From Fusobacterium varium (GTDB taxonomy: Bacteria > Fusobacteriota > Fusobacteriia > Fusobacteriales > Fusobacteriaceae): a stretch of 64,000 bases of DNA. Under the pieces are notes generated by a model, which had not been told where the DNA came from, searched no databases, and saw nothing but the letters and a program-made list of their open reading frames with translations. Position numbers and translations under genes: made by a program. This document shows, in pieces, positions 966-59,243 of the stretch. Each line of letters starts with the position of its first letter. Within the stretch, counting starts at the first letter, position 1. The stretch covers positions 1,736,001 to 1,800,000 of the forward strand of contig AP017968.1 in the NCBI GenBank assembly GCA_002356455.1, given 5' to 3'.

Positions 966-1844
966 ATGAATTTATCAACAGAAAAAAATGAAAAAATAAC
1001 AGATGCAATTAAAGTAAGAGGCATATACAGGGAAGGATATGGATTTATAGCAAAAAAAATAATGAAAGACAGAAATCTTAATATTATATCTAAAGCTATT
1101 TATGCCTATATATGCAGTTATGCGGGGAAAGGACATAATGCTTTTCCATCACAAAAATTGATATCAATAGATTTAGGAATAAATAAAGGAACATTGGTAA
1201 AATATATTAAAGAGCTGAAAGACAGCGGCTATATAACAGTAATACAGCACAAAGAAAAGGGAAAGTTTTCTAAAAATCTATATACTGTGAATATACTTCC
1301 GCAGGTGGTTTCACCGTATAGGGCGGGAACCGATACGGAAGCTGTCAGACATGGTCAAAGGGACACTAATAATAACAATATAAATAATAACATAAAGATA
1401 AATAATAACAGTGTAAATAATAATACACATACAGAGGAGCAGGAGGAAGTTATTGAGAAAATAGAATATAAAAAAGAAAAAATAGAAAATGCACCTGTGG
1501 AAATACAGCAGATAATAAAAAAATACATAGATTTAGAACTGCCGAATTTTGACTATAGACCAGATAACTATATTTTACTGGGAGTGTATAGGGAATTAGG
1601 AGCTGTAAAACTATTTGAAGCATTGACACTGATGTCTCAATCTGAATTTGTAAAAAATAATATGAGCATAAATACAATCTTTAAAATAGAAAATCTTAAA
1701 AAAGCTCTTAATGGCAGTTTTAAAAATAAAGTAAAAGATATTAAAAAAGAATTTAAAAAACCAGAATATGAAGATTTTACAGAGGAACTTATAGATGAAA
1801 TATTATCTGCAGAAACAGGAGGTTTAGAAAGTGAAAAAATGTAA
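966..1844 (+). CDS. phage-type replication initiator with N-terminal HTH
   Basis: Probable DNA-binding replication organiser of a phage or plasmid-like element. Residues about 25-110 form a winged-helix HTH of the kind found in phage replication proteins (HTH_36 type): SKAIYAYICSYA, then FPSQKLISIDLGINKGTLVKYI, then a wing before the SKNLYTV strand. A low-complexity Asn-rich linker follows (about 135-160). The helical C-terminus ends in an FKIENLKKAL-type segment resembling DnaB_2/DnaD-type tails. The gene overlaps the helicase-loader gene by 14 nt, the usual initiator-loader pairing in phage genomes. The start has GGAG 6-9 nt upstream and a good promoter. The HTH assignment is firm; the exact replication role is inferred from the pairing. 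Confidence 0.8.
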   Translation: MNLSTEKNEKITDAIKVRGIYREGYGFIAKKIMKDRNLNIISKAIYAYICSYAGKGHNAFPSQKLISIDLGINKGTLVKYIKELKDSGYITVIQHKEKGKFSKNLYTVNILPQVVSPYRAGTDTEAVRHGQRDTNNNNINNNIKINNNSVNNNTHTEEQEEVIEKIEYKKEKIENAPVEIQQIIKKYIDLELPNFDYRPDNYILLGVYRELGAVKLFEALTLMSQSEFVKNNMSINTIFKIENLKKALNGSFKNKVKDIKKEFKKPEYEDFTEELIDEILSAETGGLESEKM

Positions 1845-2637
1845 ATACTGCGGAAAAAGATATAAAGAAAACTCAATTGAACACATAGAGAAACTTCCTG
1901 ACTTTATAAAAGAAAAAATAAAATTTATCCCAGACTGCAGCTGTTTAGAAGAAATGTTTAAAAGAGAGATGGAAAAATTGGAAAAGGAAAGAGTATATGA
2001 GTGCATGAAAAACAGAGTAAAAAAATATAAAGATATTTCTGTTGTAGATAATAAATTTCTGGAAAGCAGATTTGAAAATGCTGATATGAGTGAAAAATAT
2101 ATGATTCTGGCAAAAAGATATGCAGATAATTTTCTTGTTAAAAATAAAAAAACAGGAATGCTGCTGTATGGAGATGTGGGAACTGGAAAAACTTTTGCAA
2201 GTGCATGTATAGGCAATTATCTGATGGAGAAAGGAAAAACTGTTATGATGATAAATCTGGGACTATATCTTAATAAATTAAGCAGAGAATTTGGAGAAGC
2301 TGAAAAAGATATTCTTGAACAGATAGAAAAGTGTGATCTGGTAATCATAGATGATTTTGGAACTGAAAAAAATTTAGATGACAATTCGACAGGCTGGAGA
2401 GCAGAAAAAATATATAATCTCATAGATACAAGATACAGAAGTGGAAAACCCTTGATTATATCTACAAATTTAATTTTTAATGATGATGAGGAGAAATGTG
2501 AAATAACAGAAAAATTTTCAATACAGGGTAAAAATAGAATCAGAGATAGAATAATTGATATGTGTTTTCCTGTGAGAGTGACAGGAAAAAGCAGGAGAGG
2601 AATAACTAAGGATAAATTTTTAGAATTTATGGCATAA
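1831..2637 (+). CDS. DnaC/IstB-like helicase-loader ATPase
   Basis: AAA+ ATPase of the DnaC/DnaI family, expected to load the replicative helicase at an origin bound by the upstream HTH protein. Visible are a Cys-rich N-terminus (CKYCGKRY, then PDCSC at about 35-39) like the zinc knuckle of some phage DnaC proteins, Walker A GDVGTGKT near residue 113, Walker B LVIIDDFG near residue 170, and a sensor-type IISTNL near 210. The length of 268 aa is normal for the family. It starts with GTG 8 nt after AGGAGG, inside the end of the initiator gene, so the two are probably translationally coupled. IstB of IS21 elements is the alternative, but no IS21 transposase is present. Confidence 0.88.
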   Translation: MKKCKYCGKRYKENSIEHIEKLPDFIKEKIKFIPDCSCLEEMFKREMEKLEKERVYECMKNRVKKYKDISVVDNKFLESRFENADMSEKYMILAKRYADNFLVKNKKTGMLLYGDVGTGKTFASACIGNYLMEKGKTVMMINLGLYLNKLSREFGEAEKDILEQIEKCDLVIIDDFGTEKNLDDNSTGWRAEKIYNLIDTRYRSGKPLIISTNLIFNDDEEKCEITEKFSIQGKNRIRDRIIDMCFPVRVTGKSRRGITKDKFLEFMA

Positions 2638-2664
2638 AAATTAATAATAAATCTGGGAGGAAAA

Positions 2665-2706
2665 ATGAAAAAGAAAGTACAGACAGGAGGAAATGTTGAT
2701 GGATAG
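2665..2706 (+). CDS. possible 13-aa leader peptide overlapping the HTH gene start
   Basis: ATG after GGGAGG encodes MKKKVQTGGNVDG. Its stop lies just inside the start of the next gene, and its own gly-gly codons supply that gene's AGGAGG. This arrangement suggests translational coupling, but such a short ORF could be chance. Confidence 0.3.
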   Translation: MKKKVQTGGNVDG

Positions 2707-2938
2707 AGAAGAGTATATTTACAGAAAACTCGAGGGGCTTTCATCTCTGAATAAAGCTCTTTCACAGGAAATGGTGGCATCTCTTGGAGAATGGGCAACA
2801 ATTGAGGAAGTGGCAAAATACTTAAAAAGACATAAAAATACCATCTATGACAAAGTGGATGGTGGAGATCTTCTCTACAGAAGAATAGGACCGAGTATTC
2901 TAATATATACCAGAAGTATAATTTTTCTGCTGGAATAA
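2699..2938 (+). CDS. excisionase-like HTH DNA-binding protein
   Basis: Small MerR/excisionase-type (HTH_17) DNA-binding protein of 79 aa. The core ATIEEVAKYLKRHKNTIYDKVDGGDLLYRR matches the helix-turn-helix and first wing of this family. Such proteins act as excisionases (Xis) or small regulators in mobile elements. I place the start at the second ATG: it lies 8 nt from AGGAGG, whereas the upstream ATG at 2693 is only 2 nt away. It follows the helicase loader in the same direction, as in phage early regions. No integrase is in the window, so a role in excision is only suggestive. Confidence 0.7.
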   Translation: MDREEYIYRKLEGLSSLNKALSQEMVASLGEWATIEEVAKYLKRHKNTIYDKVDGGDLLYRRIGPSILIYTRSIIFLLE

Positions 2939-3045
2939 TTTTGAACTTTCACAATCCATCACAAATCATAACATTGAATCACTGTTTAATCCTGTCTGAA
3001 AATAGTATCATGTATGTATGACAAAAATAAAACAGGAGGAACAAA

Positions 3046-3363
3046 ATGGCAGCAGGAGAAAATCAGGTAATTTTAACAGTGGTACAAAAAGAAATTGTAA
3101 AGGTGGAAAATGCTATCAAGAGAGAGAAAGCTATATTGAAAAATATAGATGATATCACAGCAACTCTTGAGCATATAGCAGAACAGGTGGAGGCAGGAAC
3201 AGCATTTCCGGAAAATTCAGCATATGAATCATACCAAGAGTGGCAGACAAGCGCTGAAAAAGAAATCAAGTCTTATAATACTTCATTGGAAACAATAGAC
3301 AAGTACAGAAGTCTGCTGGGAGCATATGAATTTTATGTAAAAAATAATACACCAGAAGCTTAA
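3046..3363 (+). CDS. hypothetical helical protein, 105 aa
   Basis: Not a family I recognise. The protein is almost entirely predicted helix, with heptad-like spacing (VVQKEIVKVENAIKREKAIL, later SAEKEIKSYNTSLETIDKY). It has no signal peptide or membrane segment. It has a strong AGGAGG and its own terminator immediately downstream. In position it sits between the excisionase-like gene and the small membrane proteins, so it may belong to the same mobile-element remnant. Confidence 0.7.
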   Translation: MAAGENQVILTVVQKEIVKVENAIKREKAILKNIDDITATLEHIAEQVEAGTAFPENSAYESYQEWQTSAEKEIKSYNTSLETIDKYRSLLGAYEFYVKNNTPEA

Positions 3364-3891: not shown

Positions 3892-3917
3892 GTTCTCTTA
3901 TATGTATAAAGGCGAAC
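3892..3917 (+). repeat. inverted repeat, left arm of segment 1
   Basis: Begins GTTCTCTT and ends GCGAAC. With its flanks it is itself an imperfect dyad (AAAAGTTC at one end, GAACTTTT at the other), as expected for a site bound by two recombinase protomers. Confidence 0.85.
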
Positions 3918-3940
3918 TTTTACATGTTTTAACTTTATCA

Positions 3941-3969
3941 ATTATAATCTCTAAAATTGATAAAGTCAA
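3941..3969 (-). promoter_or_regulatory. consensus sigma70 promoter inside invertible segment 1
   Basis: On the minus strand TTGACT is separated by exactly 17 nt from TATAAT. It points away from the autotransporter, toward the small membrane protein genes, and would currently give only antisense RNA. Confidence 0.85.
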
Positions 3970-4042
3970 GATAAAAATATTTTTAGAAAAAACATCCTTA
4001 AAAAATGACCCCCTGTAAATAAAGTAATTACAACTATTTTAT

Positions 4043-4068
4043 GTTCGCTTTTATACATTAAAGAGAAC
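4043..4068 (-). repeat. inverted repeat, right arm of segment 1
   Basis: Reverse complement of the left arm with 3 mismatches. It begins GTTCGC and ends AGAGAAC on the plus strand. Confidence 0.85.
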
Positions 4069-4155: not shown

Positions 4156-7100
4156 ATGATTAAAGAAATGGAGAAAGCTTTAAAAAGATATCTAAAGGGA
4201 AAGAATAGAATAACAATGGGAGTGGTAGTAGCTTTTTTACTGGGAAGCAGTTTTGCATTTGGAGATGTTACAGTAAAATATGAAGATTCAACTATTAAAA
4301 TACTAGATAATTCAGGAACTATTACAGAAATTGGAACAGTAACAAAAAATTCTGATGATGAATTTACCTGGACATTACCAGAAGGAACAAATATAACTGA
4401 AACTGTAAAAATAGATGATACAGTAAATACAAATAATATTAAAGTAAATATAGTGAATAGTGGAACTATAAGTGGGAGCAGTACTGGTGGAGATAAATCA
4501 GGAAATGGAATTTATTCTTATGGAGCTAGTACTATAGGAAATATAACAAATGGTGGAACTATCAATGGTAGTACTACTGGTAGTGGAACTAATTCAGGAA
4601 ATGGAATTTACTCTGATGGTACTTCAAACGGTACAATAGGAAATATAACAAATAGTGGAACTATAAGTGGTAGTACTACTGGTAGTGGAAGTCATTCAGG
4701 AAATGGAATATATTCTTATTCTATGAATGGAGCTAGTACAAGTACAATAGGAAATATAACAAATAGTGGAAGTATAAGTGGCAGTACTACTGGTAGTGGA
4801 AGTTATTCAGGAAATGGAATTTATTCTTCAAGTTTTTCAAACAGTAAAATAGAAAATATAACAAATAGTGGAACTATAAGTGGAAACAGTACTGGTGGAA
4901 ATGATTCAGGAAATGGAATATTTTCTTATTCTTATTCTGCTACTTCAAGTAATATAATAGGAAATATAACAAATAGTGGAACTATAAGTGGAAATGGTAC
5001 TGGTGGAAATGAATCAGGAAATGGAATATATTCTTATTCTGGGAAAGAAGCTAGTACAATAGGAAATATAACAAATAGTGGAACTATCAATGGTAGTACT
5101 ACTGGTAGTGGAGCTAATTCAGGAAATGGAATATATTCTTATTCTTCTTCTAATGGAGCTAGTACAATAGGGGATATAACAAATAGTGGAATTATAACTG
5201 GTAGTACTACTAGTAGTGGACATTATTCAGGAAATGGAATTTATTCTTATTCTGAACCATGTAGTACAATAGGGAATATAACAAATAGTGGAACTATAAG
5301 CGGAAAGAATGGTGATGGATATTATTCAGGAAATGGAATATATTCTTCAAGTTCTCCAAATAATAGTTCAGATTCTTCAAGTAGTACAATAGGGAATATA
5401 GTGAATAGTGGAACTATAAGTGGTAGTAGTACTAGTAGTGGAAATATTCCTGGTAGTGGAGTTGAATCAGGAAATGGAATATTTTCTTATTCTAGTACTC
5501 ATGCTATTCTCTCAGAGAGCAAAATAGGAAATATAACGAATTATGGGACAATTAGTGGAAATAATACTGGAAGTGGAACTAATTCAGGAAATGGAATTTA
5601 TTCTTTTTCTTCTAATGGTCCAGCAATAATAGAATCAATTTCAAATTATGGTGTTATAATGGGAAGTCAAAATGGAATATATATTAGAGGAGATTCTAGT
5701 TCAAAGATTAATGGATATAGCAATTATGGACTTGTAATAGGACAGACACCAGTTTTGGTTGAAAAAAATTGGTCAGGACCTAATACTTTCAGTGTTCCTG
5801 AAGGGAAGGGAATGGCTATAACTCTTGAGAGTGATGGAAGTATAAAAACTAATGGTATTACCTCAGGAAATGGAGATAGCACGGGAATATATTCTATAAT
5901 AAATACAACTTCACAAAATGGTGGAGTGGATGCATACAATGAATATACAAATGGTGAAAATATTTTAGATTCTATTATCAATGGAGCTGGTGTAAGTAGT
6001 GGAACAGTAACAATAAATGCAGGTAATTTTTCACTTACTAATGGAATTATTAATGCCTATAAAACTGCTGTTACAGTTAAAGATGGAGCTTCATTTACTG
6101 GTACAGATGTAACAATCAATGGTGGTGGCTTAGATAGAACTACTCCTGTTATTTCTGGAGATTCAGGAGCTAATACAGTGAATATATCTGGAAATTCTTT
6201 TATCAATGGAAAAGTTGATTTAGGAGATGGAGATGATATTTTATTTATTGGAAATTCTACTCAAATCAATGGAGATATAGACGGTGGAACAGGTAATGGG
6301 GATATTCTTAATTTTGGTTCAGCCGTTTCCAGAGCAGTGGGAAATGATAATATAAATCTTTTCCATAAAATATCAAATGTGGAAGAAATAAATATAAATC
6401 AGAAAGTAACTGCATTTGAAACTTCTGAAATTACAGGAGCAGGCAATATTAATATTGGTAAAAATGGGGAGTTTGTATTAAGAATAGATACAAGCAAAGT
6501 GGACAACACAAGTGGGACAGATAAAATTACAGGTCATGCACTTTATGGGAATATAGGAACAATATCTTCAACAGGAGGAAAATTATTACTTGCTCTTAAT
6601 GGAGTAGGGAATGAAAGTATAATAAGTTTTGGAAATACTCAATTGGATAGCAGTTTGGTGACAGGAGATGAAGGAAAATATCAGGAAGATATAACTTTAG
6701 ATACAACATCACTGCTTCACTCAGTAGGAAAAATAGATTTATCAAACAATGAAATAAAAATTACAGCTAAATTTGATCTTCCTACAAAACCAATTAATCC
6801 AGATAATATAACATATGAAAAATTAAATAAAATATATCATGGTATTCTTTCGGTAGATAAATTAGAAAACTTTAATGTAGATACTGATGAAAAATTCTCA
6901 TCTTTCATAGGATATTTAAATGATATCTATGCAGGAAATCCATACTCATATTCTTCTGAATTATCAAGAAAATCAATGGAAATGTTCAGAGATATAGTTA
7001 CTGAAAATTCATTTAAAGCAGATACAGGAAAATGGATGATATATGGCGGACTTACTCATATAGATGGAGGAACTAAAGATACATATTATGGAAAAGGATA

Positions 7101-7926
7101 CTATACTTATGATATAGGAAGTTCTGATATAGATTCTGATACAAAAATCACAGGAGCATATATGCTTGGAGAGTATGGAGTATCTGATGACTTTAAAGCT
7201 GGAGTAGCAGTTGGAGGAAACAAGCTTAAATCTGATTTGTCTAATGACTCAAAAGTTGATGGAGATGCGCTGTATATTGGAGGATATGCTAAGAAGTATC
7301 TTGGAAATCTAAAAGTAACAGCAGGAGCAGGATTTCAATATGGAGATTATGATGCAGACAGAACAGCAGCAGGAAGAGAAATTACAGAAACAAGAAGCTA
7401 TTCTTCAAGCTACAATGATTTGACTTATGATATTTATCTGAATGGAAGATATTCATATAATATTGGAGAGAACTTATTCCTAGAACCTTATGCAACTCTA
7501 TCATATACATATGTAGATCAGGATGGAGCAGATGAGGGAAATAAAACTTTAGCAATAGAAACAGATTCAAAATCATTTGATTATACATCAGCTAAAGTGG
7601 GATTAGACCTAAAAAAAGTGATACCACATGAAAAAGGAAAGAGTACATTATCAGTTGGGGCAAGCTATACAAGACTGCTTAATGGCGCAGATGAAGAACA
7701 CATCACAGGAAGATTTAAAGGTGGAAGTGACTTTGATATATTAGTTGCCCACAAGAATGAACATAGCTTAGGACTGAATGCTAAATATACACTTGAACTG
7801 GAAAATGGAATCTTATTTGATGTAAAGGGAAGCTATGCAGTAGAAAGAGATTCACACAATAACTCAGGTAAAAACAAGACAAAAGGTGAATGGATAGTAG
7901 GAACAGGACTGGGTTATAAATTCTAA
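4156..7926 (+). CDS. type Va autotransporter with tandem-repeat passenger, 1256 aa
   Basis: Surface protein expected to be exported by Sec and to insert its own C-terminal beta-barrel in the outer membrane. The signal peptide (1-36) has the extended basic form KALKRYLKGK followed by a hydrophobic core ending FAFG. Residues about 95-500 are around ten tandem units of the type IGNITNSGTISG...SGNGIYSYS, a Ser/Thr/Gly/Asn-rich beta-helix-like passenger. A second, non-repetitive passenger part follows. The barrel occupies roughly 955-1256 and ends in the aromatic GLGYKF. The start has a GGGGGAGAGG site. The only strong promoter upstream points the wrong way (invertible segment), so expression may be phase-variable. 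Two HU-like genes follow after a terminator. The ligand is unknown. Confidence 0.93.
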   Translation: MIKEMEKALKRYLKGKNRITMGVVVAFLLGSSFAFGDVTVKYEDSTIKILDNSGTITEIGTVTKNSDDEFTWTLPEGTNITETVKIDDTVNTNNIKVNIVNSGTISGSSTGGDKSGNGIYSYGASTIGNITNGGTINGSTTGSGTNSGNGIYSDGTSNGTIGNITNSGTISGSTTGSGSHSGNGIYSYSMNGASTSTIGNITNSGSISGSTTGSGSYSGNGIYSSSFSNSKIENITNSGTISGNSTGGNDSGNGIFSYSYSATSSNIIGNITNSGTISGNGTGGNESGNGIYSYSGKEASTIGNITNSGTINGSTTGSGANSGNGIYSYSSSNGASTIGDITNSGIITGSTTSSGHYSGNGIYSYSEPCSTIGNITNSGTISGKNGDGYYSGNGIYSSSSPNNSSDSSSSTIGNIVNSGTISGSSTSSGNIPGSGVESGNGIFSYSSTHAILSESKIGNITNYGTISGNNTGSGTNSGNGIYSFSSNGPAIIESISNYGVIMGSQNGIYIRGDSSSKINGYSNYGLVIGQTPVLVEKNWSGPNTFSVPEGKGMAITLESDGSIKTNGITSGNGDSTGIYSIINTTSQNGGVDAYNEYTNGENILDSIINGAGVSSGTVTINAGNFSLTNGIINAYKTAVTVKDGASFTGTDVTINGGGLDRTTPVISGDSGANTVNISGNSFINGKVDLGDGDDILFIGNSTQINGDIDGGTGNGDILNFGSAVSRAVGNDNINLFHKISNVEEININQKVTAFETSEITGAGNINIGKNGEFVLRIDTSKVDNTSGTDKITGHALYGNIGTISSTGGKLLLALNGVGNESIISFGNTQLDSSLVTGDEGKYQEDITLDTTSLLHSVGKIDLSNNEIKITAKFDLPTKPINPDNITYEKLNKIYHGILSVDKLENFNVDTDEKFSSFIGYLNDIYAGNPYSYSSELSRKSMEMFRDIVTENSFKADTGKWMIYGGLTHIDGGTKDTYYGKGYYTYDIGSSDIDSDTKITGAYMLGEYGVSDDFKAGVAVGGNKLKSDLSNDSKVDGDALYIGGYAKKYLGNLKVTAGAGFQYGDYDADRTAAGREITETRSYSSSYNDLTYDIYLNGRYSYNIGENLFLEPYATLSYTYVDQDGADEGNKTLAIETDSKSFDYTSAKVGLDLKKVIPHEKGKSTLSVGASYTRLLNGADEEHITGRFKGGSDFDILVAHKNEHSLGLNAKYTLELENGILFDVKGSYAVERDSHNNSGKNKTKGEWIVGTGLGYKF
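4441..5650 (+). repeat. coding tandem repeats in autotransporter passenger
   Basis: Imperfect repeats of about 85-120 bp, each containing a variant of ATAGGAAATATAACAAATAG and of GGAAATGGAATTTATTCT. All keep the reading frame. Copy number could vary between strains by slippage or recombination. Confidence 0.85.
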
Positions 7927-8002: not shown

Positions 8003-8296
8003 ATGACAGAAGGGGAATTTATAAGATTCTATAAAAAGAGAAATGGACTAAAGAATCAGCAGGAAGTAAAAGAAAAGATAGACTTATTCTGGAATACATT
8101 GCTAAAAGTTCTGAATGAAGGTGAAAAGGTAACCTTTAAAAATTGGGGAACATTTGAAGAAAAAGAGGTAAAACCAAGAAAAATAATGATAGCCAGAATA
8201 AATAAAACTGGTTATACAAAAGCTAAAAAGAAGATAAGATTCAGGGTAGGAACAGGCTTGCAGGATATAGTAAATGGAGCTGGTACTAATGAATAA
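8003..8296 (+). CDS. HU/IHF-like DNA-binding protein (first of pair)
   Basis: 97 aa with the HU fold signature: helical N-terminus (GEFIRFYKKRNGLKNQQEVKEKIDLFWNTLLKVLNEGEKV), then the core KNWGTFEEKEVKPRK, matching the GFGTFEVRERAARKG core of HU, then the DNA-clasping beta arm and the closing strand KIRFRVGTGL. The Asn-Pro of the arm tip that HU and IHF insert into DNA is absent here (arm reads ARINKTGYTKAK). The next gene overlaps by 8 nt and does keep it, so the two may form a heterodimer as IHF alpha/beta do. The same pair recurs after the second autotransporter. The ribosome-binding site is AGGGGG. Confidence 0.85.
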   Translation: MTEGEFIRFYKKRNGLKNQQEVKEKIDLFWNTLLKVLNEGEKVTFKNWGTFEEKEVKPRKIMIARINKTGYTKAKKKIRFRVGTGLQDIVNGAGTNE

Positions 8297-8558
8297 GAGA
8301 GAATTAGCAAAAGTATACAGTGAAGTGAGTAAAGGAGAAATATCAGCAAGAAAAGCGCTGAAAGAAATAGAAGTATTTCTTGAAACAATGCAGGAGGCTT
8401 TGCAGAAAAGTCATTCATTAATATTTATAAATATAGGAATATTTGAAGTGAAGGAAAGAAAACCAAGAGTAATAGCCAATCCAGTAACTAAAGAACCTAT
8501 GAAGATTTATCCAAGAAAGACTGTGAAGTTTAGAGTATCTAAAAAAATAGAGAGATAA
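8289..8558 (+). CDS. HU/IHF-like DNA-binding protein (second of pair)
   Basis: 89 aa. The C-terminal half is a clear HU match: FINIGIFEVKERKPRVIANP, followed by the strand KIYPRKTVKFRV. The arm-tip Asn-Pro (IANP) is intact. I start it at the ATG overlapping the previous stop by 8 nt, with GGAG 9 nt upstream. An in-frame start 15 nt further upstream is possible, but the equivalent second pair has the same 8-nt overlap, which supports this choice. Overlap implies coupled, near 1:1 synthesis with the first protein. A role in local DNA architecture, perhaps at the invertible promoters, is inferred. Confidence 0.85.
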   Translation: MNKRELAKVYSEVSKGEISARKALKEIEVFLETMQEALQKSHSLIFINIGIFEVKERKPRVIANPVTKEPMKIYPRKTVKFRVSKKIER

Positions 8559-8701: not shown

Positions 8702-8727
8702 GTACTTCTTTATATATAAAAGCGAAC
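8702..8727 (+). repeat. inverted repeat, left arm of segment 2
   Basis: Ends TATATAAAAGCGAAC, like the left arm of segment 1. Its outer end (GTACTTCTT) is the most diverged of the four arms. Confidence 0.75.
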
Positions 8728-8740
8728 TATATTTTTTTCT

Positions 8741-8769
8741 ATTATATTCTCTAAATTTTAAAAAGTCAA
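8741..8769 (-). promoter_or_regulatory. consensus sigma70 promoter inside invertible segment 2
   Basis: Minus strand TTGACT, 17-nt spacer, TATAAT. It reads toward the HU-like pair of module 1, antisense to it. Confidence 0.85.
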
Positions 8770-8842
8770 GATAAAATATATTTTAAAAATATAATATTGA
8801 AAAAATTAAGTATTAGAAATAGGGAATTTTCTCCCAATTAGT

Positions 8843-8868
8843 ATTCGCCTTTATATATATAAGAGAAC
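8843..8868 (-). repeat. inverted repeat, right arm of segment 2
   Basis: Reads ATTCGCC...AAGAGAAC on the plus strand. Its reverse complement differs from the left arm of segment 1 at only two positions. Confidence 0.8.
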
Positions 8869-8929: not shown

Positions 8930-11900
8930 ATGGTTGAAAAAATTTTGGGAAGAGCAAAGAGTAGCAATCAAAAAAGAGGTATTAATGTAGCAATTGGAGT
9001 GGTAATAGGGTGTTTTTTGATTGGGGGAATAGGATATTCACAAGAGGAAGTTATAAATAAAAAAACAGTGTATGATGAAGAAATAAAGTGGTTGTGGCCA
9101 TTTGAAAAAGGAAGCAGTAAAAAAAAATTAGAAGGAAATACAGGGGGAGAAGTATTGCCACCAGAGCCAGAAATTATTCCACCTAAAAAAGATGAAATAC
9201 CATGGCAGCATGATCCAGATGGAGTAATAGAAGATGGATTAGAACAGGATTCAACTGATATATATACAGGAATATTGAAAAGAGAATGGAATAAAGAAAA
9301 AGAAAAATGGGAAGTAGTTGGATTACAAGATGAGAATAAAGATGGAATAGCAGATATATATGATCCAGATGGAGATTTTGATGGAGATGGAATAAAAAAT
9401 AAAGATGATAAAAATTGGGCATTAAATGCTGGAAAACAAAATGATCTTTTTATATCAAGTAATGGATTAGGATATGTAGATTCTGGAAGTATAGTGAGAG
9501 TATTAAAAGAAAATGATTGGAATGCAGATAAAATAAAAAATTATTTATACAGTAAAGGACAGCTGGATTTATATAAAAATGGAATAAAAAATTTAGAAGA
9601 TACAGATATAAAAACTATTACTAAACTTAATAAGTATAATGAAAAATATAACAAAGAAAATAAAATAATTAACTCAAATGATGGTACTGGAGAGTTTGAA
9701 AATAAATTAAAAGAAATAGAGCAGAATAAGCTGGATGAATATAATAATTTTACTGGAGGAACAAATAATTTACTATATAATGATATCGCAACTGAAATCA
9801 CAGGACAAAATATAAGAGAAAAGGATAATATACAAGTTGTAAATAAAGGAAAGATTAATTTTACAAGAGTTAATCCAGGGCAATTAGGAGCCAAATCGAA
9901 TAGTTTTAAAGCATATAATTATGGTGAAATAATAGGAAGAATAGATTTAAATGGCAGCGGAGAACCTGTAAGCAATGATTCAATAGGCCAAAAAGGTATG
10001 GCAGAAAGTAATCATTTATATAATTATGGAGTAATAGATGTAGAAATAAAAATTGAAGGTGGATATATAGGAAGTGTAGGACAAAGAATAGATAATAATA
10101 TGTCATATTCTAAAAGTGTAGATAATGAAATTATAAATTATGGATATATTAAAAGTATTAATACAGGGGGAGGGGCAGCAGCAGGACAAGATGCATTGGC
10201 AACAGGTGGATTAAAAATAGAACTGATAAATTCTGGAAAAATATATGCAGAAGTAAATGGAGCTAAATCAGGAAATAATGGACCTGAAATAGTTGGACAA
10301 AGAATACATGGTTCTAATACACAATCTAGTTTTTTAGATATAAATGCAGATATTTATAACTATAATGACATTAAACTAGTGTTAAAACAAGGAGATGATG
10401 GAATCAATCAAGCTCATTATTTATATGGTCAAAAGGCTACTATAGCCTTAGTTCCTCCATCAACTGAAACTGCCTATTTGAATAGTCAGTTATATAATTA
10501 TGGTAATATAAAAATAGAGGACTTAGATGGAAAATTAGGAGAAACTGGATTCTTATATGGACAATATGCAGAAACTTTAAATCAAGGAACAGATGCTGAA
10601 AATAAAACTGCTCAAAATAATGTTTATAATTATGGAAATATAGATATTATCTCTAAAGGAACAACAACTTCGTATGGTCAAAGAGCTGCAATAAAATATA
10701 ATTCGATAAATATCAGAGAAAACCAACTATATAATTATGGGAAAATTAATATTTCTTCTGAGAATAAAAATTATGGACAATTTTTAACAACTTGGTCAAC
10801 TAAAGAATTTTTTAAATCAGATATATATAATTATGGAATAATAATTAGTGAGGGAAAGGGAACAATTGGACAATCAATAGAAGGATATAAAGGAACTGCA
10901 AATAATTATGGACAAATAAGAGTAAAAGGTGGAACAAAAGATACAGCAGGAATAAAAGTAATAGATGGTGCAATAGGGTTTAACTATGGAATGATAGAGG
11001 TAGATAACAAAGGAATTGCACCTGAAAATATGGGAACAGGAATGTGGGCTGATGGAAAAGATTCAGAAGCATTTAACTATGGAAGTATCATAGTTACTGG
11101 ATTGACAGGAACTGTTGAAAATGGAATGGATACAGCATATATGAGAGCTACTAATGGAGGAAAAGTATATAATTATGGGTGGCTTGAATTAAAAGACTCA
11201 CTAGATGCATTAACTATTGGAGAAGGAGTGAGTTCATCTACAAGAGCAGGCTATAGATCAGCAGGAGATTTTGACCTTAAAGGTGAAATGAAGATAATGG
11301 CAGAAACAGGAAAGGGAGATATCTATTCTAAAGAAAATTTCATTACAGCAGGAGGAAATGGAAAAGAAGGAAATATATCAGGACTTGAAAACCTTACATC
11401 TTCAGGAGTATATGAAATTTTTACAACAGAAAGAAAAGGGGATAATGGAGAAAATATAGTTGACCTTGTAATGAATAAAACTAAAAATATAGAGGATTTG
11501 GAAAAAGACAGTAATACAGGAAGAATGGTAAAAGAATTACAGCTTGATAATGCTGTATATGGAAAAGATTCAGAGTTTGCAAGGAATAATAAAGAGTTCT
11601 CAGAAATGATATCAAGAAAAGTATCAGAGGGAGAATCACTTGAAAATTTACTTGGACTTGAATATGCAAATTTAAATGGACAGATAATTGAATCAGGAAA
11701 GGTACTGTTAGAAAATCAGGAAAAAGTTATGAGTACAGACAGAACTTATCTAAGTGGGCAGTTTAATAAAGAAAATAATTTTGATGCAGTAGTAATCAAT
11801 CCTCAAAATGAAAGCAAAATAGGTATATTTCATTTAAATTCAGATAAAGACCTTGACTCTCAAGTTTCAGGAACATACAGATATGAATTGGAAAGTACAA

Positions 11901-12616
11901 CTCTTATACTTCAAAATAATAAAAACTATATGATTGGTATGAATTATTCAAAATTAGATTATAAAAACAGAAATAGTGATATGAAGAAAACAAGTGTATT
12001 TGCAGGTCACAATTATATAAAATCATTGAGTGATATATCAGAGTATAGAAATTATATAAATGGAACTCTGACATTTAATACTATGGATAGAAATGGAAAA
12101 AGAGATGATTTCAAATCATATGATTTAAATATGAGAAATGAATATGTAAGAGAATTAGATATAGAAGGACTCACATATTCAGAATTTACAGCAGGGGTTA
12201 AAACAACTGTATTTGGTCATGAAAAAATAAAAGAACATGGAGCAGACTTAACTTCAGACAGAAATATAGAAGTAAAGAAAAAAATAGGAATATCAAATGA
12301 AATTAACTTAGGTTTTCTTATGAATAAAAGCTATGAAATAGGAGAAAATAAAAGAAAAAATAATTTTGGTATAAGTACATACTTAGGATATAAAAAAGAA
12401 CTCATGCCAATAAATGACTGGAGAGATGAATTCACAATAGGAACAGGAAACTATGCTAAATATAATAAACCAGTAAAAGAACATGATTTAGGAGTAGGGT
12501 TGGGAGTAGTATCAGCAAGATATGAGATTAAAGATGAATTATCAGGAACATTAAGTTTTTCAGCAGATACTTTAGGTGATACAATGACAACATTTAAGAT
12601 AGAATATAAATTTTAA
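8930..12616 (+). CDS. type Va autotransporter with Asp-rich N-terminal segment, 1228 aa
   Basis: Outer-membrane surface protein. The signal peptide (1-38) has a long n-region (MVEKILGRAKSSNQKRG) and a hydrophobic core ending GIGYSQ. Residues about 70-100 are Pro-rich (LPPEPEIIPPKK). Residues about 132-160 (DENKDGIADIYDPDGDFDGD and onward) match the Asp-rich calcium-binding thrombospondin type 3 pattern. From about 300 to 750 the passenger repeats YNYG-I units, as in beta-helical adhesins. A helical linker precedes the barrel (about 935-1228), which ends FKIEYKF. AAAGGAG precedes the ATG. Seventeen bases after the stop comes an HU-like gene with no terminator between, so the three genes form one transcript, probably under the invertible promoter. 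Confidence 0.92.
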   Translation: MVEKILGRAKSSNQKRGINVAIGVVIGCFLIGGIGYSQEEVINKKTVYDEEIKWLWPFEKGSSKKKLEGNTGGEVLPPEPEIIPPKKDEIPWQHDPDGVIEDGLEQDSTDIYTGILKREWNKEKEKWEVVGLQDENKDGIADIYDPDGDFDGDGIKNKDDKNWALNAGKQNDLFISSNGLGYVDSGSIVRVLKENDWNADKIKNYLYSKGQLDLYKNGIKNLEDTDIKTITKLNKYNEKYNKENKIINSNDGTGEFENKLKEIEQNKLDEYNNFTGGTNNLLYNDIATEITGQNIREKDNIQVVNKGKINFTRVNPGQLGAKSNSFKAYNYGEIIGRIDLNGSGEPVSNDSIGQKGMAESNHLYNYGVIDVEIKIEGGYIGSVGQRIDNNMSYSKSVDNEIINYGYIKSINTGGGAAAGQDALATGGLKIELINSGKIYAEVNGAKSGNNGPEIVGQRIHGSNTQSSFLDINADIYNYNDIKLVLKQGDDGINQAHYLYGQKATIALVPPSTETAYLNSQLYNYGNIKIEDLDGKLGETGFLYGQYAETLNQGTDAENKTAQNNVYNYGNIDIISKGTTTSYGQRAAIKYNSINIRENQLYNYGKINISSENKNYGQFLTTWSTKEFFKSDIYNYGIIISEGKGTIGQSIEGYKGTANNYGQIRVKGGTKDTAGIKVIDGAIGFNYGMIEVDNKGIAPENMGTGMWADGKDSEAFNYGSIIVTGLTGTVENGMDTAYMRATNGGKVYNYGWLELKDSLDALTIGEGVSSSTRAGYRSAGDFDLKGEMKIMAETGKGDIYSKENFITAGGNGKEGNISGLENLTSSGVYEIFTTERKGDNGENIVDLVMNKTKNIEDLEKDSNTGRMVKELQLDNAVYGKDSEFARNNKEFSEMISRKVSEGESLENLLGLEYANLNGQIIESGKVLLENQEKVMSTDRTYLSGQFNKENNFDAVVINPQNESKIGIFHLNSDKDLDSQVSGTYRYELESTTLILQNNKNYMIGMNYSKLDYKNRNSDMKKTSVFAGHNYIKSLSDISEYRNYINGTLTFNTMDRNGKRDDFKSYDLNMRNEYVRELDIEGLTYSEFTAGVKTTVFGHEKIKEHGADLTSDRNIEVKKKIGISNEINLGFLMNKSYEIGENKRKNNFGISTYLGYKKELMPINDWRDEFTIGTGNYAKYNKPVKEHDLGVGLGVVSARYEIKDELSGTLSFSADTLGDTMTTFKIEYKF

Positions 12617-12633: not shown

Positions 12634-12921
12634 ATGAAGGAAAATGATTTTATAAAATTATATCGAAACAACAGAGGTTTAAAAAATCAAAAAGAAGCTA
12701 AAGAAAAAATAGATGCTTTTTGGAATACATTATTTAAAGCTGTAGAAACTGGTGAAAAGGTAATTTTTAAAGGATGGGGAAAATTTGAAAAAAAAGATAT
12801 GAAATCTAGAAAAATAAAAATTCCTAAAAAAGATCAGCTGATTTGTACACAGCCTAAAAGTATAATAAAGTTCAGGGCAGGAAAAGTTTTTAGAAAAAGG
12901 CTGGTAGGTGCATATGAATAA
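12634..12921 (+). CDS. HU/IHF-like DNA-binding protein (first of second pair)
   Basis: 95 aa, clearly paralogous to the first protein of the earlier pair (shared GLKNQ-EAKEKID-FWNTL and GEKV-FK-WG-FE). The HU core reads FKGWGKFEKKDMKSRK. As in its paralogue, the arm-tip Asn-Pro is missing (arm IPKKDQLICTQPKS). It is co-directional with the autotransporter 17 nt upstream and so is probably co-transcribed with it. The ribosome-binding site is AAGGCAGAG, weaker than usual here. Probably a nucleoid-type architectural protein; the target is unknown. Confidence 0.85.
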   Translation: MKENDFIKLYRNNRGLKNQKEAKEKIDAFWNTLFKAVETGEKVIFKGWGKFEKKDMKSRKIKIPKKDQLICTQPKSIIKFRAGKVFRKRLVGAYE

Positions 12922-13186
12922 AAAAGAATTTATAAAATTGTATAGAAGTGTTTATGGAGAAAATATAACTGTAAAAGAATCTTTAGAAGATATAGATATA
13001 TTTTTAAAAACAGTAGAACAGGTGCTAAAAGAGAATGGAAAAGTAAAATTTACAAAAAGAGGAGTATTTGAAGTAATAGATAGAAAGCCAAGAAATATAT
13101 CAAATCCTTCAACTAGAGAGATAATGACAATTTATCCCCAGAAAACAATAAGATTTAGAATAACTAAAAATATAGCAAAATACTAA
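12914..13186 (+). CDS. HU/IHF-like DNA-binding protein (second of second pair)
   Basis: 90 aa. HU core FTKRGVFEVIDRKPRNISNP, then IYPQKTIRFRI, with the arm-tip Asn-Pro present (ISNP). The ATG start overlaps the preceding gene by 8 nt, identical to the first pair. A GTG two codons earlier is a less likely start. The presence of one arm with and one without the proline in both pairs suggests an obligate heterodimer. A terminator follows about 70 nt downstream. Confidence 0.85.
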   Translation: MNKKEFIKLYRSVYGENITVKESLEDIDIFLKTVEQVLKENGKVKFTKRGVFEVIDRKPRNISNPSTREIMTIYPQKTIRFRITKNIAKY

Positions 13187-47839: not shown

Positions 47840-50800
47840 ATGAAAAAAAGTGATATTGAAAAATCTTTAAAAAGGTTTTTAAAAAGAAAAATTGGTTATT
47901 CTTTATCACTGTTAATAGCCTTTTTGATAACAGGAGAAATATCATTAAGTGCAGGAATAACAGCAGAGGAGATACAGGAAACAAAAAGTGATCTGTTGAT
48001 AAAAATACAAACAGAAAGAGAAGAAATAAAAAGAAAGATAGCGGAAAATGAAAAATTAATAAAAGAATATAACTCAAATTTTGTGGAACTGTTAAGGAAA
48101 GGCAATTTTTATTCCAAGCCAACATTTAAGAGTACACAGCTTTTTTTCACTTATCAGTATTTAGATAATGGAAAGATGAAAAATAGAACTAATAAAGAGT
48201 TTTCAGAAACAATAAATGCGGTTAATAAGTATTATAAAACGGGTAAAAATTCAGGAACTGATAAAATATTGGAAGGAAATGGTTTTGCTGTAGATGATAC
48301 TGTATTTAGAGAGACAATAGAAGTAGGAGCAAATATAAAACTAATACAGCCAGATTTACCAATAGTAAATCCAAATATATCAGTAACAGCATCGGCACCA
48401 GAAGTTAATCTGGGAGTCTTGCCTAAAACAATAAATCCAGCGATAGCTTCAGTGCCGACAGTAACAGCGCCGGTAATTGCAGCTCCAGTACCGCCAGGTG
48501 GAGTATCAGTAACTGTATCAACACCAAGTGCAGTGGAAAAAATAACAGTGACAGCACCTGTTATTGCAGCACCAACAGCACCAACAGAAAAGAATGTGAA
48601 AATAAGTAATCCAACTTTGCCTGAAGGGTATGATCCAACAATAATAAAGCTTCCAGCAGCACCTTCACTACCAGTAGTAGTGCCAGTGAATGTCTCATCT
48701 CCATCAATAGCTGGAAGCGGAGCAAATCCTACTACTGCTTATTACTGGTGGAATGGGAATAAGGGAGCTATTTCTCAAATAAGTCTAGTTTCTGGAACAT
48801 ATATTGTGAATGGATCTTCTAATAATTACAATATAAATGTAACAAATTATAATGCTGAAGCTTTTAATGGAATAACACCACAAGGTAGTAAACCAACAGA
48901 AAATAAGATTTATAATGTTTCTCAACAATTTTTTCATACTTTATTAAATGTACCATATTCATATTATGGAGAAAATACAAAAATAGTTTTTAATTCAAAT
49001 AATGCTATGCTTATAAACTTGGAAACTGAAGGAACAGTTAATGGAAATTTAAATGATAGGTTAACAGAGAATCTTATAACATCTGACACTTATAACAGGC
49101 TTAGACAATATCAAACATACACAGGTATTAAAGGTGCAGATAGTACAGAACTTTTGTTCACTAATAAGGGTAAAGTTGAAATAAATGGAAATAAATCAGC
49201 ATATCTATTTACAACAACTCATAGTAATGGAAGACTCAGAACTAACTATCTTGATAATGAAGGAACAATTACTGTTAATGGAAATAATTCTGTTGTATAT
49301 ATGCACTCTCCTGATACGACTGAAAAAACAGCATATATTTATTCAAATGGCCCAACTGGAAAAATATATGTAGATGGTGTGGGAGCTTCTCTAATGCAAT
49401 GGGTATATCATAATTTGGCTCATAACAAAGCAGCATTTGTAAATGATGGAACTGTTGAAATTAGAGGAGCTGAAGCTATTGCATTATATATGTCAGATGA
49501 TGTAAATAATGCAACGTTTAATAATGAACATGCAGCATATATAAAAAAACCAATCGAATTATTAGGAGATAAGAGTGTTGGTTTAGTTGCACAAAATACC
49601 AATATAACAAATGAAAAAAATATTGTGAAGTTTAATATTGGAAATAAAAAACAAACTATAGCAAAAGGAAATTCTGTAAATAATATTTTTACAGGAAGAA
49701 CTAATGATCCTAATTTAGTAGAGCAAGCTATTGGAATACTGATGGACAATTCAAGTACAACAAAAACAGCAGCTCAAATAGAAATAGGAGAGTATTCATA
49801 TGGTGGAATAGGAATATTTGGAAAAAATGGAACAATTGAAATTTTAAAACCATATGGAGCTCCAGCAGAAAACAGCAGTATAAAAATATCTGGTGGAGAA
49901 GGAAATATTGGAATAATTGCTCAAGGAGGAGATGTAAAGTTTGATGGAGATATTTCAATAGAAAGTGGAAAAAACAACCAGATAGCAATTGCCCAAAATG
50001 GAAAAACAATAACAATAAATGGTAATGTGACAGCTGGAGATAATACTAAGAAAATTGAGAATAGTGTTGCTCTATATGCTAAAGACAGCGGAACAGTGAT
50101 AAATATAGCAAAAGATAAGTTGAATTTGAATTTATCAGGAAATAGCACAGGTATATTTGCAACAAGTCAGGGAAGTATTACAGCAGACAGAACTTCTTTG
50201 ACACTTTCTCAGCCTGATGGTAATGGGAATATTCCAGAGCCAACTACTCCAGCAAATATATATATAGAAGGAAAAATACAAGCTGATGGAAGTACATCAG
50301 GTTTAGGAATTTATGCAAGTGATGGCGGAAAAATCAGTGTTAAAAATACTTATGTTAAAGTAAAAGATGGAACAGTAGGAGCAGTAGCAACAGGAGCTAA
50401 TTCAAATATAGACTTGTCAGGAGGTATAGTTGATTATAGTGGAGATGGATATGCTGTTTATACTTCAAATGGAGGAACTGTTAATTTATCAAATGGAGAA
50501 ATAATTCTGAGAGGAAAGGCCACAGCTCTTGAATTGGATTTAAGCACTCCTTCTTCTAATCCAATAACATTAACAGGGGCTAAAATTGTAGTAATGTCTA
50601 ATGATGCAGTAGGTGTTAATCTTAAGAATATAGGAACTTTAAATATAGGAACACTTAAAACAGATATAGAAAATAAGTTAGGTGGAGTAAATATAGTTGC
50701 TGGAACAGATGGAACTCAAGTATTTGACAAGTATAAGATAGCAGCTGTAGATGGAGGAATTTTAAACATTAATGCCAATATGGATAAATCAGATACTTCT

Positions 50801-53800
50801 ACTACCTCACCAGGATTTTTCTATTATAGAAGATTTTTAGGTCAGAGACTTAATCTTAATGTTCTTAATGGAATAAAAGTAAAATCAGAAATCAATAGTT
50901 CTGATGCAGCAGCATATTTTAAAGGACAGGTAGTAGGACTTGAAATGAGTTCAAGTAAAGCAGCAGCAAGTGCATCAGATGCTCAGATAAATCTTGCAGC
51001 AGGTTCTAAAGTAATAGCAGACAGAACAGATGCAGGGGCAGGAGCAATTGGTCTATATATGAACTTTGGTAAAATAGATATTGCAGCAACTGCTGGAGTG
51101 GAAGTTGAAAAAGGTGCTAATACTGTTAATGATAAAGCAGTAGGAGTATATGCAGTAAATGGAAGTACAGTGTCAAATGCTGGAAATATAGAAGTAAAAG
51201 GAAATCAGGCTATAGGTATTTTAGGAATGGCATATAGAGAACAGCCTGCAGGAACACCTGTTGTTAATGAGTTTGGAACAGGAGGAATTTTTGCAGATCA
51301 AGGAAAAATAAATATTACTAACAGTGGATATGTGGCTTTAGGTGGAACTGGAACTATAGGAATATATGCATATAATAACAATGCAGCTGGAACAAGAGCA
51401 GATGCTAAAGTTACTAATAATGCAGCTGGAATAGTTGATGTAGGAAATTCGACAGCTGCAAATGCAGCTATTGGAATATATGGTGAAAAAACTACAATAT
51501 CTAACCTTGGAATAATTTCAGTAGGAAGTAATGGAATTGCAATATATGCTAAAAATAATTCTGAAGTGACAAATCTTGGAACTCTTAATCTTGGAGCAGA
51601 TGGAATTGGAGTAATGCTTGACAGTACATCAGATCTTACAGCACCAAATGTATCAGTTACTTCAAATGGTACTGGAACATCTGGAAAAACTGTGATCTTC
51701 TATAAAGGAACAGGAGCAGGGCATAAAATAATAAATACAGCTATTGATGCATCAGCTTTAAATAAAGGAACAGCTGTATATGCTGAAGATATGAGCATCA
51801 CTTCACAAGGAGCATTAAATATTGGAGCTTCTGGAATTGGTATATTTGTTAAAGGAACAGGAGTTAATCTTGGATATAATGAGGGAAACATTATCTTAGG
51901 TGCAGGTAAAACTGGAGCTGTTGGTATGTATACTAAAACAGCTAATATTGTTAATAAGACAACTGGGGTTATTAACGTAAATGATTCTTCTCAAATAGGA
52001 ATGTATGCTGAAGGAACTGATAATCAGGCTATAAATAGAGGAACTATTAACCTTAATGTAGATGGAGCTACAGGAATCTATCTAAAATCAGGCGCATATA
52101 CTGAACTTGATAGTACAAGTAATATTGTATTCGGTGGAAAATCAAGTATAGGAGTATTTGCTGAAAAAGCTAGAGTAGAATTTGGGGATAATATGACTCT
52201 ATCAAATACAAATGAAAATAAAAATATATTTGTATATGGAAAAGATAGTAAAGTAGAAATTGCTGCTGGTAAAACAGTAACTGTAGATGGAGTAACAGCA
52301 GCAGTAACTCCTGGAAATAAAGCAGTGGGAATCTATCTTGAAAATGCCGGAACAGGAAGCAGATTTGTAAGTAATACAACAGGAAAGCTGGATGTTGTAA
52401 ATGAGGCAGTGGGACTTTATTCTAAAGGAAATAATAATCTGAATGTGAATGTAACAGCAACTGGAGATAAGACTACAGGGGTATTTATAGATGGTGCTTC
52501 TGAAATAACAGGAACTGTAACAGCAAGAGGAAATGCAGTAGGAGTATATGGAAGCGGAGGGGCTGTAACTGTAGGTGCAGCTGGACTTACTCTTAATACT
52601 GACACAGCAAGAGGAACAGGAATGTATCTGACAGATGGAGCTTCAGCAACTGGAGGAATAATAACTGTAAATAATACAGCAGCAGGAACTAAAAATATAG
52701 GAGTATATTACAGCAAAGGAACTGCATCAGGTACTGTAACAAATAGCTCAGATATTTCTCTGGCTGGAAGTGAAAGCATTGGAATATATGCAGCAGATGG
52801 AATAAATTTAGTAAATAATTCTAATATTACATCAACAGCAGGAAAATCAGAGAATATTGGTTCATATGTAGGAGGAGGTTCCCAGTTAACTTCAGCAGGA
52901 ACTATCACAATGAATGACAGTGACAGCATAGGAATGTATACAGAAGAAGGTAAGGGAATCAATTCAGGAAATATTTTAATGAATGGAGCATCAAGCGCAC
53001 CAAATAAATCAGTTGTAGGTATGGTGGCTGAAGCTCAAGCTGGAAAAACTGCAGCAGTAGAAAATAGTGGAACAATATCAGCAGGGGCTAATCTTGGAAT
53101 GTATATAGGAGGATTAGGTACAAGCTCAGGTAAAAATGCAGGAACAATAACAACGACTACAGGAACTGGAGTATATGTAGATGGTGCAGCAAATACTTTT
53201 GATGGAACAGGTGGAACTATCAATTCAAATAAGGTTGGAATATACCTTAAAAATACTGGAGCAAATAAAATAACAACAGGAACTTTAAATATAGCTTCAG
53301 GAGGAGTTGGAGTATTTGGAGAAAATGCTAATATAGATTTCACAGTTGATACATCAAATTCTGCAGAAGCAGTGGGAGTTGCAGCTAAAGGTACTTCAGT
53401 AATATCTGGAAATATAACAACAGGACAGGATTCAGTTGGAGTATATGTTCTTGATAATAATGTATCATTTAATGGGGCAAATATAACAACAGGTTCAAGA
53501 TCAGGAGCTCCATTAAAGTCTTCAATAGGAATACTTTTAAATAAAGCATTAGGTGCATATACAATGAGCAATGTTACAGTAAATGCACAAAACGGAGTGG
53601 GAATCTATTTAGATGGAACTGCACCAGGAACACATTTGACACACAATGGAACTGTAAATACAGTTGGAGGAATAGGTATCTATGTAGATAATGGAACTAC
53701 TCTTACAACTGGAACAACAGTTCTTAATATAAATGGTGGAACAGGGGTATATATAAAAGGAGGAACAGCCAACTTAGGAACTGGAGGAAACCTTACATTC

Positions 53801-57802: not shown

Positions 57803-57805
57803 ATT

Positions 57806-57838
57806 GAATAAACTGTCCCTTATATAGGGACAGTTTAT
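57806..57838 (+). terminator. hairpin between autotransporter and RGRP gene
   Basis: Perfect 13-bp stem AATAAACTGTCCC / GGGACAGTTTATT, 7-nt loop, starting 4 nt after the stop codon. With only a weak T run it is probably a partial terminator or mRNA-stabilising hairpin. Confidence 0.75.
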
Positions 57839-57856
57839 TATCTAAAGGTGAAAAAT

Positions 57857-58198
57857 ATGAGTACAAAAATAGAAAAAAGAGGAAGACCTTTAGGAAGCGG
57901 AAACAAAGTTAAGACTATATTAGGAATAAGAGTCAGTTGTGAAGAATACGATATAATAGAAAAAGGCCTTGCTAAATTAAAGCCTAAATTTAAAACTAAT
58001 AAAAAAATAATTATATATCTTTTTGAAAAGTATAATAAATTTCACATAGGAGATAAAGCAGGATTAGATGAATTGCTTCTTAAATTAATAAGTAAAGAAT
58101 TGAATAAAGACATTTACAGCAAAGAGGAGAAAAAACAATTAAAAGAATTTTATAAAAAAATTCAAAGTAAGGGATTAAAAAATATTTTTAATATTTGA
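57857..58198 (+). CDS. AT-hook / RHH-like DNA-binding protein, 113 aa
   Basis: Same family as the 80-aa protein after the first giant autotransporter. KRGRPLGSGNK carries the RGRP AT-hook core. The GIRVSCEEYDIIEKGLAKLK and NKKIIIYLFEKY segments fit a ribbon-helix-helix layout. The longer tail is helical and charged. I start it at the ATG 8 nt from AAAGG; a GTG three codons earlier overlaps that site. Likely a regulator tied to the giant operon; targets unknown. Confidence 0.75.
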   Translation: MSTKIEKRGRPLGSGNKVKTILGIRVSCEEYDIIEKGLAKLKPKFKTNKKIIIYLFEKYNKFHIGDKAGLDELLLKLISKELNKDIYSKEEKKQLKEFYKKIQSKGLKNIFNI

Positions 58199-58220
58199 AA
58201 TATTGAAACAAGGAGAGAAT

Positions 58221-58655
58221 ATGCAGATAAAATTAACAAAAGAAGAATTGAAAAAATTAAATGGGAATAAAGATGGGATAGCTCAACTTTTAGTGAGGAA
58301 AGCTATACTTACTGAAATGGAGAATAAAGAATATACAGAAGAAGAGAAGAAATATCTAGAGGAAATGAGGCTTAATATGGAGATAGAATATTATCTTAAT
58401 TCAATAGCCCAGAAAACAGTTCAAATATATGATTATGAGCTTTTGGAAGTATATAAAAACAATGCCGAATTCTTAAAAGATAAAAATACAATGGATATAT
58501 ATCCTCAGCTTCAGCAAGCTTTATTTAATCAGAAGCTTGGAGAGGAAAAAGTAAAAGTAATAAATGGAATAGTTGAAAAATATAAAATAAATGATTTGTT
58601 GAAAGAATATACGCCTATATCAACAGAAGAAGTAAAAAAAGAAGAAAATAAATAG
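58221..58655 (+). CDS. helical protein, 144 aa, unknown
   Basis: No signal peptide. The sequence is rich in helices: LTKEELKKLNGNKDGIAQLL, EMRLNMEIEYYLNSIAQKTV, YDYELLEVYKNNAEFLKDKN and QLQQALFNQKLGEEKVKVIN. This pattern loosely resembles the helical chaperone part of SurA/PpiC-type foldases but lacks the isomerase domain and any export signal, so that is only a weak resemblance. AAGGAGAG precedes the ATG. It sits between the RGRP gene and the FadA-family gene in one transcript. Confidence 0.65.
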   Translation: MQIKLTKEELKKLNGNKDGIAQLLVRKAILTEMENKEYTEEEKKYLEEMRLNMEIEYYLNSIAQKTVQIYDYELLEVYKNNAEFLKDKNTMDIYPQLQQALFNQKLGEEKVKVINGIVEKYKINDLLKEYTPISTEEVKKEENK

Positions 58656-58665
58656 GAGGGAAGTT

Positions 58666-59028: not shown

Positions 59029-59037
59029 GGAAAATAT

Positions 59038-59238: not shown

Positions 59239-59243
59239 AGCTT

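Follow-up and report, generated by a model that had tools for sequence, protein, structure and literature searches.

The question raised by positions 3892-4068 of the analyzed window, a stretch of 64,000 nucleotides from Fusobacterium varium Fv113-g1, is whether these 177 bp form an invertible promoter switch, assembled in its OFF orientation upstream of a large autotransporter gene. Autotransporters number in the dozens in F. varium and F. ulcerans. The genome paper of strain Fv113-g1 lists 44, of which two were significantly induced and six relatively highly expressed; the low number with notable expression was left unexplained, and the paper makes no mention of inversion, recombinases, or promoters (PMC5720691). 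An earlier note, made from the sequence of the window alone, had proposed such a switch. Following the analysis described here, the region was judged, with a probability of about 0.9, to be an invertible promoter switch that belongs to a genome-wide family and would be worked by a candidate 198-aa tyrosine recombinase.

The features of the locus and of a second cassette in the same window are given in Table 1. The 26-bp inverted repeats of the earlier note (3892-3917/4043-4068) were recovered, with 23/26 positions identical and 125 bp between them, where shuffled windows gave an expectation of 0. The 26-bp pattern occurs three times in the window, at both sites of cassette 3892-4068 and at one site of cassette 8702-8868. 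The repeats had been described as dyads, a description that was refined to 10-bp arms flanking a 6-bp exchange region. The flipping segment had been put at 125 bp, which is the distance between the repeats; the invertible unit reaches into the exchange regions (3902-3907/4053-4058) and measures about 151 bp. Inversion of 3918-4042 itself is a prediction drawn from sequence comparison with other loci.

A promoter was found between the inverted repeats and upstream of a gene, an arrangement expected of an inverton. The minus-strand TTGACT-N17-TATAAT (3969-3941) was present and directed away from gene 4156-7926, as the note had stated, and the product of this gene matched the autotransporter beta-domain (PF03797). 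The further claim of the note, that no comparable promoter faces the gene, held only in part: a plus-strand TTTACA-N18-TATAAT scoring 11/12 shares its palindromic -10 with the away-facing promoter, and this match is not kept in diverged paralogues. Promoter-like matches in the region total 11, against 10.6 by chance, so that the case for the away-facing promoter lies in its conservation among paralogues and not in a single match. In the OFF form the autotransporter would be silent.

Table 1. Coordinates of the two cassettes and their associated genes in the F. varium Fv113-g1 window.
Feature	Position	Strand	Basis or detail
Left recombination site GTTCTCTTATATGTATAAAGGCGAAC	3892-3917	+	10-bp arm, exchange region ATGTAT at 3902-3907, 10-bp arm
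Right recombination site GTTCTCTTTAATGTATAAAAGCGAAC, inverted	4043-4068	-	ATGTAT exchange region at 4058-4053
Inter-site segment, predicted to invert	3918-4042	.	inversion at paralogous loci in G008, G009
OFF promoter TTGACT-N17-TATAAT, directed away from autotransporter gene	3941-3969	-	promoter matching and conservation
Weaker overlapping promoter-like match TTTACA-N18-TATAAT, gene-facing	3919-3948	+	diverged paralogues lack it
1256-aa autotransporter, predicted switch target	4156-7926	+	PF03797 1.6e-30
IHF/HU-like protein, first of overlapping pair after 4156-7926	8003-8296	+	PF00216 4e-12
IHF/HU-like protein, second of pair	8274-8558	+	PF00216 7e-18; PDB HU/IHF matches
Second cassette, left site, exchange region ATATAT at 8712-8717	8702-8727	+	inverted-repeat partner of 8843-8868
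Second cassette, right site	8843-8868	-	inverted-repeat partner of 8702-8727
Second-cassette promoter TTGACT-N17-TATAAT, also directed away from its gene	8741-8769	-	promoter scoring
1228-aa large protein downstream of second cassette	8930-12616	+	Pfam search: 0 domains matched
IHF/HU-like protein, first of second pair (after 8930-12616)	12634-12921	+	PF00216 1.7e-14; IHF-alpha in PDB 2.8e-10
IHF/HU-like protein, second of second pair	12908-13186	+	PF00216 1e-15

Site matches were counted in F. varium Fv113-g1 (G000) and in other genomes. G000 holds 48 matches at up to three mismatches, compared with 0 for a reversed-pattern control, and most of these pair as inverted repeats about 141-233 bp apart. 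Among 12 Fusobacterium genomes searched, three other site-rich genomes of the F. varium/ulcerans group (G008, G009, and G010) hold 38-66 matches each, one further genome (G011) has a single match, and the remaining genomes have none. When 61 Fusobacteriaceae were searched at two mismatches, matches were obtained in G000, G008, G009, and G010 only. More than 80 inverted pairs are present in these four genomes, and the site is nearly absent from 57 other Fusobacteriaceae. Outside the F. varium/ulcerans group no close match was found among plasmids, among viral contigs, or in the GTDB collection of genomes, which possibly lacks near relatives. Promoter and target were scored in 86 cassettes from loci around site matches. 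Cassettes with matching cores, the core being the central 6 bp of the site, number at least 85 (at least 26 in G000, at least 14 in G008, at least 24 in G009, and at least 21 in G010), these counts being lower bounds because only part of the site matches was fetched. The one related cassette of G011 (L051, 1500-1690) has the core ATACAA and the promoter TTGACA-17-TATTCT, in a genome without the recombinase. Two cassettes in G000 (L023, 6767-6978 and 12463-12674) have no clear promoter and lie 8-20 bp upstream of 242- and 252-aa genes without a known family.

Over 79 pairs from the four genomes, the site consensus is GTTCNNNTTT-6 bp-AAANNNGAAC, with 10-bp arms around the core. Core positions 11-16 were identical within the pair in 78/79 pairs, against a mean of 17.6 and a maximum of 28 for shuffled partners (2000 shuffles); the fetching pattern for the loci covered part of the core, a bias toward common cores that does not by itself force the partners to match. 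At positions 5-7, 9-10, and 20-22 of the same 79 pairs, the difference within pairs was much like that between pairs. This identity of the core beside non-matching neighbours is what characterizes the strand-exchange region of a tyrosine recombinase, and it fits the requirement of an enzyme with a 6-bp exchange region. Dyad arms and a partner-matched exchange region, expected to measure 6-8 bp in the core sites of tyrosine recombinases, were both found.

A core that varies between pairs and matches within each pair also bears on the explanation that 3892-4068 is a miniature inverted-repeat transposable element (MITE), situated upstream of surface genes by chance, since transposition needs no such match. 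Near-identical copies with terminal inverted repeats are scattered round the chromosome, as a MITE would have it. However, the similarity extends past the repeats, by about 40 bp on the left and into the signal-peptide region on the right, so that whole promoter-gene regions were duplicated and not the 177-bp unit alone; moreover, the promoter is retained, and its cassette lies the same way round relative to the gene from copy to copy. A MITE origin was considered extremely improbable.

At least 10 distinct cores were distinguished, strand disregarded, and the sole palindromic one is that of the second cassette of the window. Cassettes within 10 kb of each other shared a core in 1/10 cases, compared with 4.4 expected (P = 0.015), which is suggestive, on small numbers, of distinct cores insulating neighbouring switches from one another. 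One cassette in G010 (L117, 8674-8850) has mismatched cores (ATACAT/ATCTAT), lies between an ATCTAT cassette and an ATACAT cassette, and is perhaps a chimaera unable to flip. Polymorphic arm positions that occur in pairs (9-10 and 20) were also tried as markers of the phase of each cassette; they are shuffled with respect to the segment and allowed no clear assignment.

Promoters and orientation were then compared across cassettes upstream of large genes, defined as ORFs of at least 700 aa. An away-facing TTGAct-17-TATaaT promoter scoring 10-11/12 was present in 48/51 of these cassettes. The gene-facing strand mostly scored about as high as shuffled sequence does, the exceptions being L138 and the subfamily of 3892-4068, in which the palindromic -10 also yields a gene-facing TTTACA-18-TATAAT. 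The autotransporter domain was found in 8/8 large genes tested and in 4156-7926 as well, and 8930-12616 has no Pfam match. Scored automatically, cassettes before large genes are OFF in 15/15 cases in G000 and in 7/7, 10/11, and 15/15 cases in the other three genomes (47/48 overall), although the uniform orientation of the 15 in G000 would also be given by a rarely used or inactive switch. The ON state was assigned to 7/9 scored cassettes with the core ATATAA, against 1/61 of the rest, with L080 (ON) and L074 (OFF) set by hand. Among the ATATAA-core cassettes L081, L102:3944, L106:11359, L123:3957, L138, L140, and L145, the ON state prevails, and the genes they face are for the most part IHF-like.

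Two comparisons of paralogous loci bear on inversion. In G008, L074 and L080 have collinear flanks with 87-89% identity, and the inner segments match (148/170) only when one of them is inverted. In G009, L138, which lies upstream of a 1265-aa autotransporter, has the opposite orientation to six paralogues of that genome, with its promoter facing the gene. By these comparisons inversion has occurred in nature over evolutionary time; as they set different loci side by side, they are no measure of a present inversion rate. The note had suggested looking for the flipped form in assemblies of relatives, and flipped forms were found at these paralogous loci in G008 and G009, whereas any one GTTC-site locus was seen in one state only.

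If the repeats were instead the binding sites of a regulator in a fixed region that does not invert, with expression from the plus-strand TTTACA-18-TATAAT, the orientation shared by the 15 large-gene cassettes scored in G000 would be accounted for, as would the 11/12 score of that plus-strand match in the subfamily of 3892-4068. Such a region is nevertheless very unlikely: diverged subfamilies lose the plus-strand match and keep the away-facing promoter, paralogous loci show inverted forms, and an exact pairwise match of the central 6 bp is unexpected for operators. The OFF state of every scored large-gene cassette in G000 could also mean that a family of switches, once active, is now decayed or locked OFF in Fv113-g1, and the relative G010 does have a mismatched-core cassette (L117:8674) and a pseudogene of one recombinase. 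Against this, neither the sites and cores nor the promoters and reading frames are damaged, identical-core pairs have been retained across diverged copies, and the recombinase is intact and duplicated in G000; decay or locking was thus rated unlikely, with a higher chance than a fixed region.

The candidate enzyme, a first kind of short tyrosine recombinase of 198 aa, is encoded at G000:C1:3156432-3157025, about 1.4 Mb from cassette 3892-4068, with an identical copy at 3237238, and has no flanking sites. It scores above the PF00589 cut-off and has the conserved R, H-x-x-R, H, and Y of tyrosine recombinases; R44, H146, R149, H172, and Y181 are invariant in the family, which is 80-100% identical among the four site-rich genomes and at most about 51% elsewhere in the genus. 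More distant relatives occur over a wide range that includes other Fusobacteriaceae, Gastranaerophilales, and Bacilli, and a search for dyad-bearing inverted repeats near the relatives in other Fusobacteriaceae found nothing convincing. From its co-occurrence with the 26-bp sites, we infer that the first-kind recombinase acts on them. A small serine invertase was considered as the enzyme and rejected, being not common to the site-bearing genomes; G008, G009, and G010 have large serine recombinases only.

A second kind of short recombinase (G000:C1:1631168) is 76% identical to the first and intact in three of the four genomes, and could be the acting enzyme instead. We regard this as rather unlikely, though less so than a locked family. 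Its gene is a pseudogene in G010, a genome which still has 21 cassettes, and it lies between inverted repeats of a different type, ATGGTTAATATAA...TTATATTAACCAT (L151, 2300-4300, in G000; also L152, L153, and L154). Between collinear flanks, the segment of about 805 bp that carries it has one orientation in G000 and G008 and the opposite one in G009. Judged by this arrangement, the second kind probably serves its own local, self-flipping switch; for both reasons, the pseudogene and the repeats of other sequence, the first kind is the better candidate for the GTTC sites. With more than 80 similar pairs, matched cores, flips between paralogues, a conserved promoter, and a co-occurring recombinase, the invertible promoter in its OFF state that the earlier note proposed is the best-supported reading of 3892-4068.

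In the proposed mechanism, the 198-aa recombinase would bind the 10-bp arms of both 26-bp sites, and strand cutting around the shared 6-bp ATGTAT would be followed by inversion of the segment of about 151 bp. The assembled OFF state would have the promoter reading away from the autotransporter; after inversion, transcription would begin near 4026 and give a leader of about 130 nt, and the ON state would express an operon of the autotransporter and its IHF/HU-like pair.

The pairs themselves were examined further. All four IHF/HU-like proteins of the window score above the curated PF00216 cut-off. The NP motif of the DNA-bending arm is present in 8274-8558 and 12908-13186 and absent in 8003-8296 and 12634-12921. 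The arrangement of an autotransporter followed by an IHF/HU-like pair recurs at many paralogous loci, and some cassettes directly precede such a pair; in L011, L013, L020, L025, and L027, no pair was found downstream of the large gene. The four site-rich genomes have 51, 53, 42, and 46 members of the IHF/HU family (E <= 1e-8), compared with 14 in G011 and 1-8 in other Fusobacteriaceae, so that the expansion, like the recombinase, co-occurs with the sites. We know of no precedent for such a roughly tenfold expansion linked to switches, and the linkage of switched autotransporters to IHF/HU-like pairs is apparently unreported so far. A role of the pairs as accessory DNA-bending factors or switch regulators is speculative; the accessory function of IHF at the fim switch (PMC6083910) makes it natural to hypothesize that the pairs assist inversion or feed back on it. 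It is possible, if doubtful, that the IHF-like heterodimer of each operon feeds back on inversion by promoting, locking, or excluding it, and that distinct cores keep the switches separate, giving separately addressed and possibly mutually exclusive surface proteins.

Two further parts of the window were annotated. A block at 966-3363 has HTH_36 and DnaC-like genes (292, 268, and 105 aa), with ORFs of similar size near other cassettes (L010, L017, and L026), and perhaps consists of remnants of an integrated element. At 47840-59522, a 3320-aa gene precedes a FadA gene at 58666-59028 and an HU-like gene at 59244-59522, a gene order that points to the D-MEM-induced FV113-G1_15670/15700 of PMC5720691. 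The D-MEM-induced T5SS gene FV113-G1_15670 had been considered as gene 4156-7926; FadA lies three genes on, which led to 47840-57802 instead.

Genome-wide promoter switches could explain why few autotransporters are notably expressed. If so, surface make-up would vary among the cells of one culture, with consequences for adhesion, immune recognition, and strain typing, and the data suggest that F. varium has a large, individually switchable set of surface proteins. The IHF/HU-like expansion makes it a testable question whether individual switches can be addressed by dedicated DNA-bending proteins. The note knew of no described switch of this sequence in Fusobacterium; in the openly licensed literature on Fusobacterium invertons, invertible promoters, and phase variation, no description of such switches was found. 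Within the known kind of invertible promoters, the number of switches, the diversity of cores, and the IHF/HU-like linkage are remarkable.

Known systems share parts of this arrangement. Bacteroides fragilis has genome-wide invertible promoters of capsule and surface genes worked by few recombinases, and its master invertase, Mpi, is a serine recombinase; the two systems are alike in their many invertible promoters, whereas the Fusobacterium genomes with sites have no shared small serine invertase. To our knowledge, no expansion of IHF-like genes is linked to the B. fragilis promoters. In the Xer/dif system, two arms of roughly 11 bp flank a 6-bp centre, and a tyrosine recombinase acts at one chromosomal site; the arm-centre-arm layout is similar, but the F. 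varium/ulcerans group has many inverted pairs. The nearest named families of the 198-aa recombinase are XerA, XerC, and XerD, and the nearest PDB entries 4a8e and 5hxy, although it falls far below the cut-offs of the XerC, XerD, and XerA families and has no N-terminal domain. A further likeness is to fimS of Escherichia coli with FimB and FimE and to ipuS of UpaE in UPEC, in which a promoter on a short invertible element stands before an adhesin or autotransporter gene and is turned by tyrosine recombinases (PMC6083910). Those genomes have one or few such switches, compared with at least 26 cassettes in F. varium Fv113-g1, and the 7-bp inverted repeats of ipuS (PMC6083910) contrast with the 10+6+10-bp site and at least 10 exchange sequences of the F. 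varium/ulcerans group. The recombinases of fimS and ipuS mostly adjoin their switch, whereas the F. varium candidate is distant, and where fimS uses IHF as an accessory factor (PMC6083910), many of the F. varium cassettes have IHF/HU-like pairs inside the switched operons.
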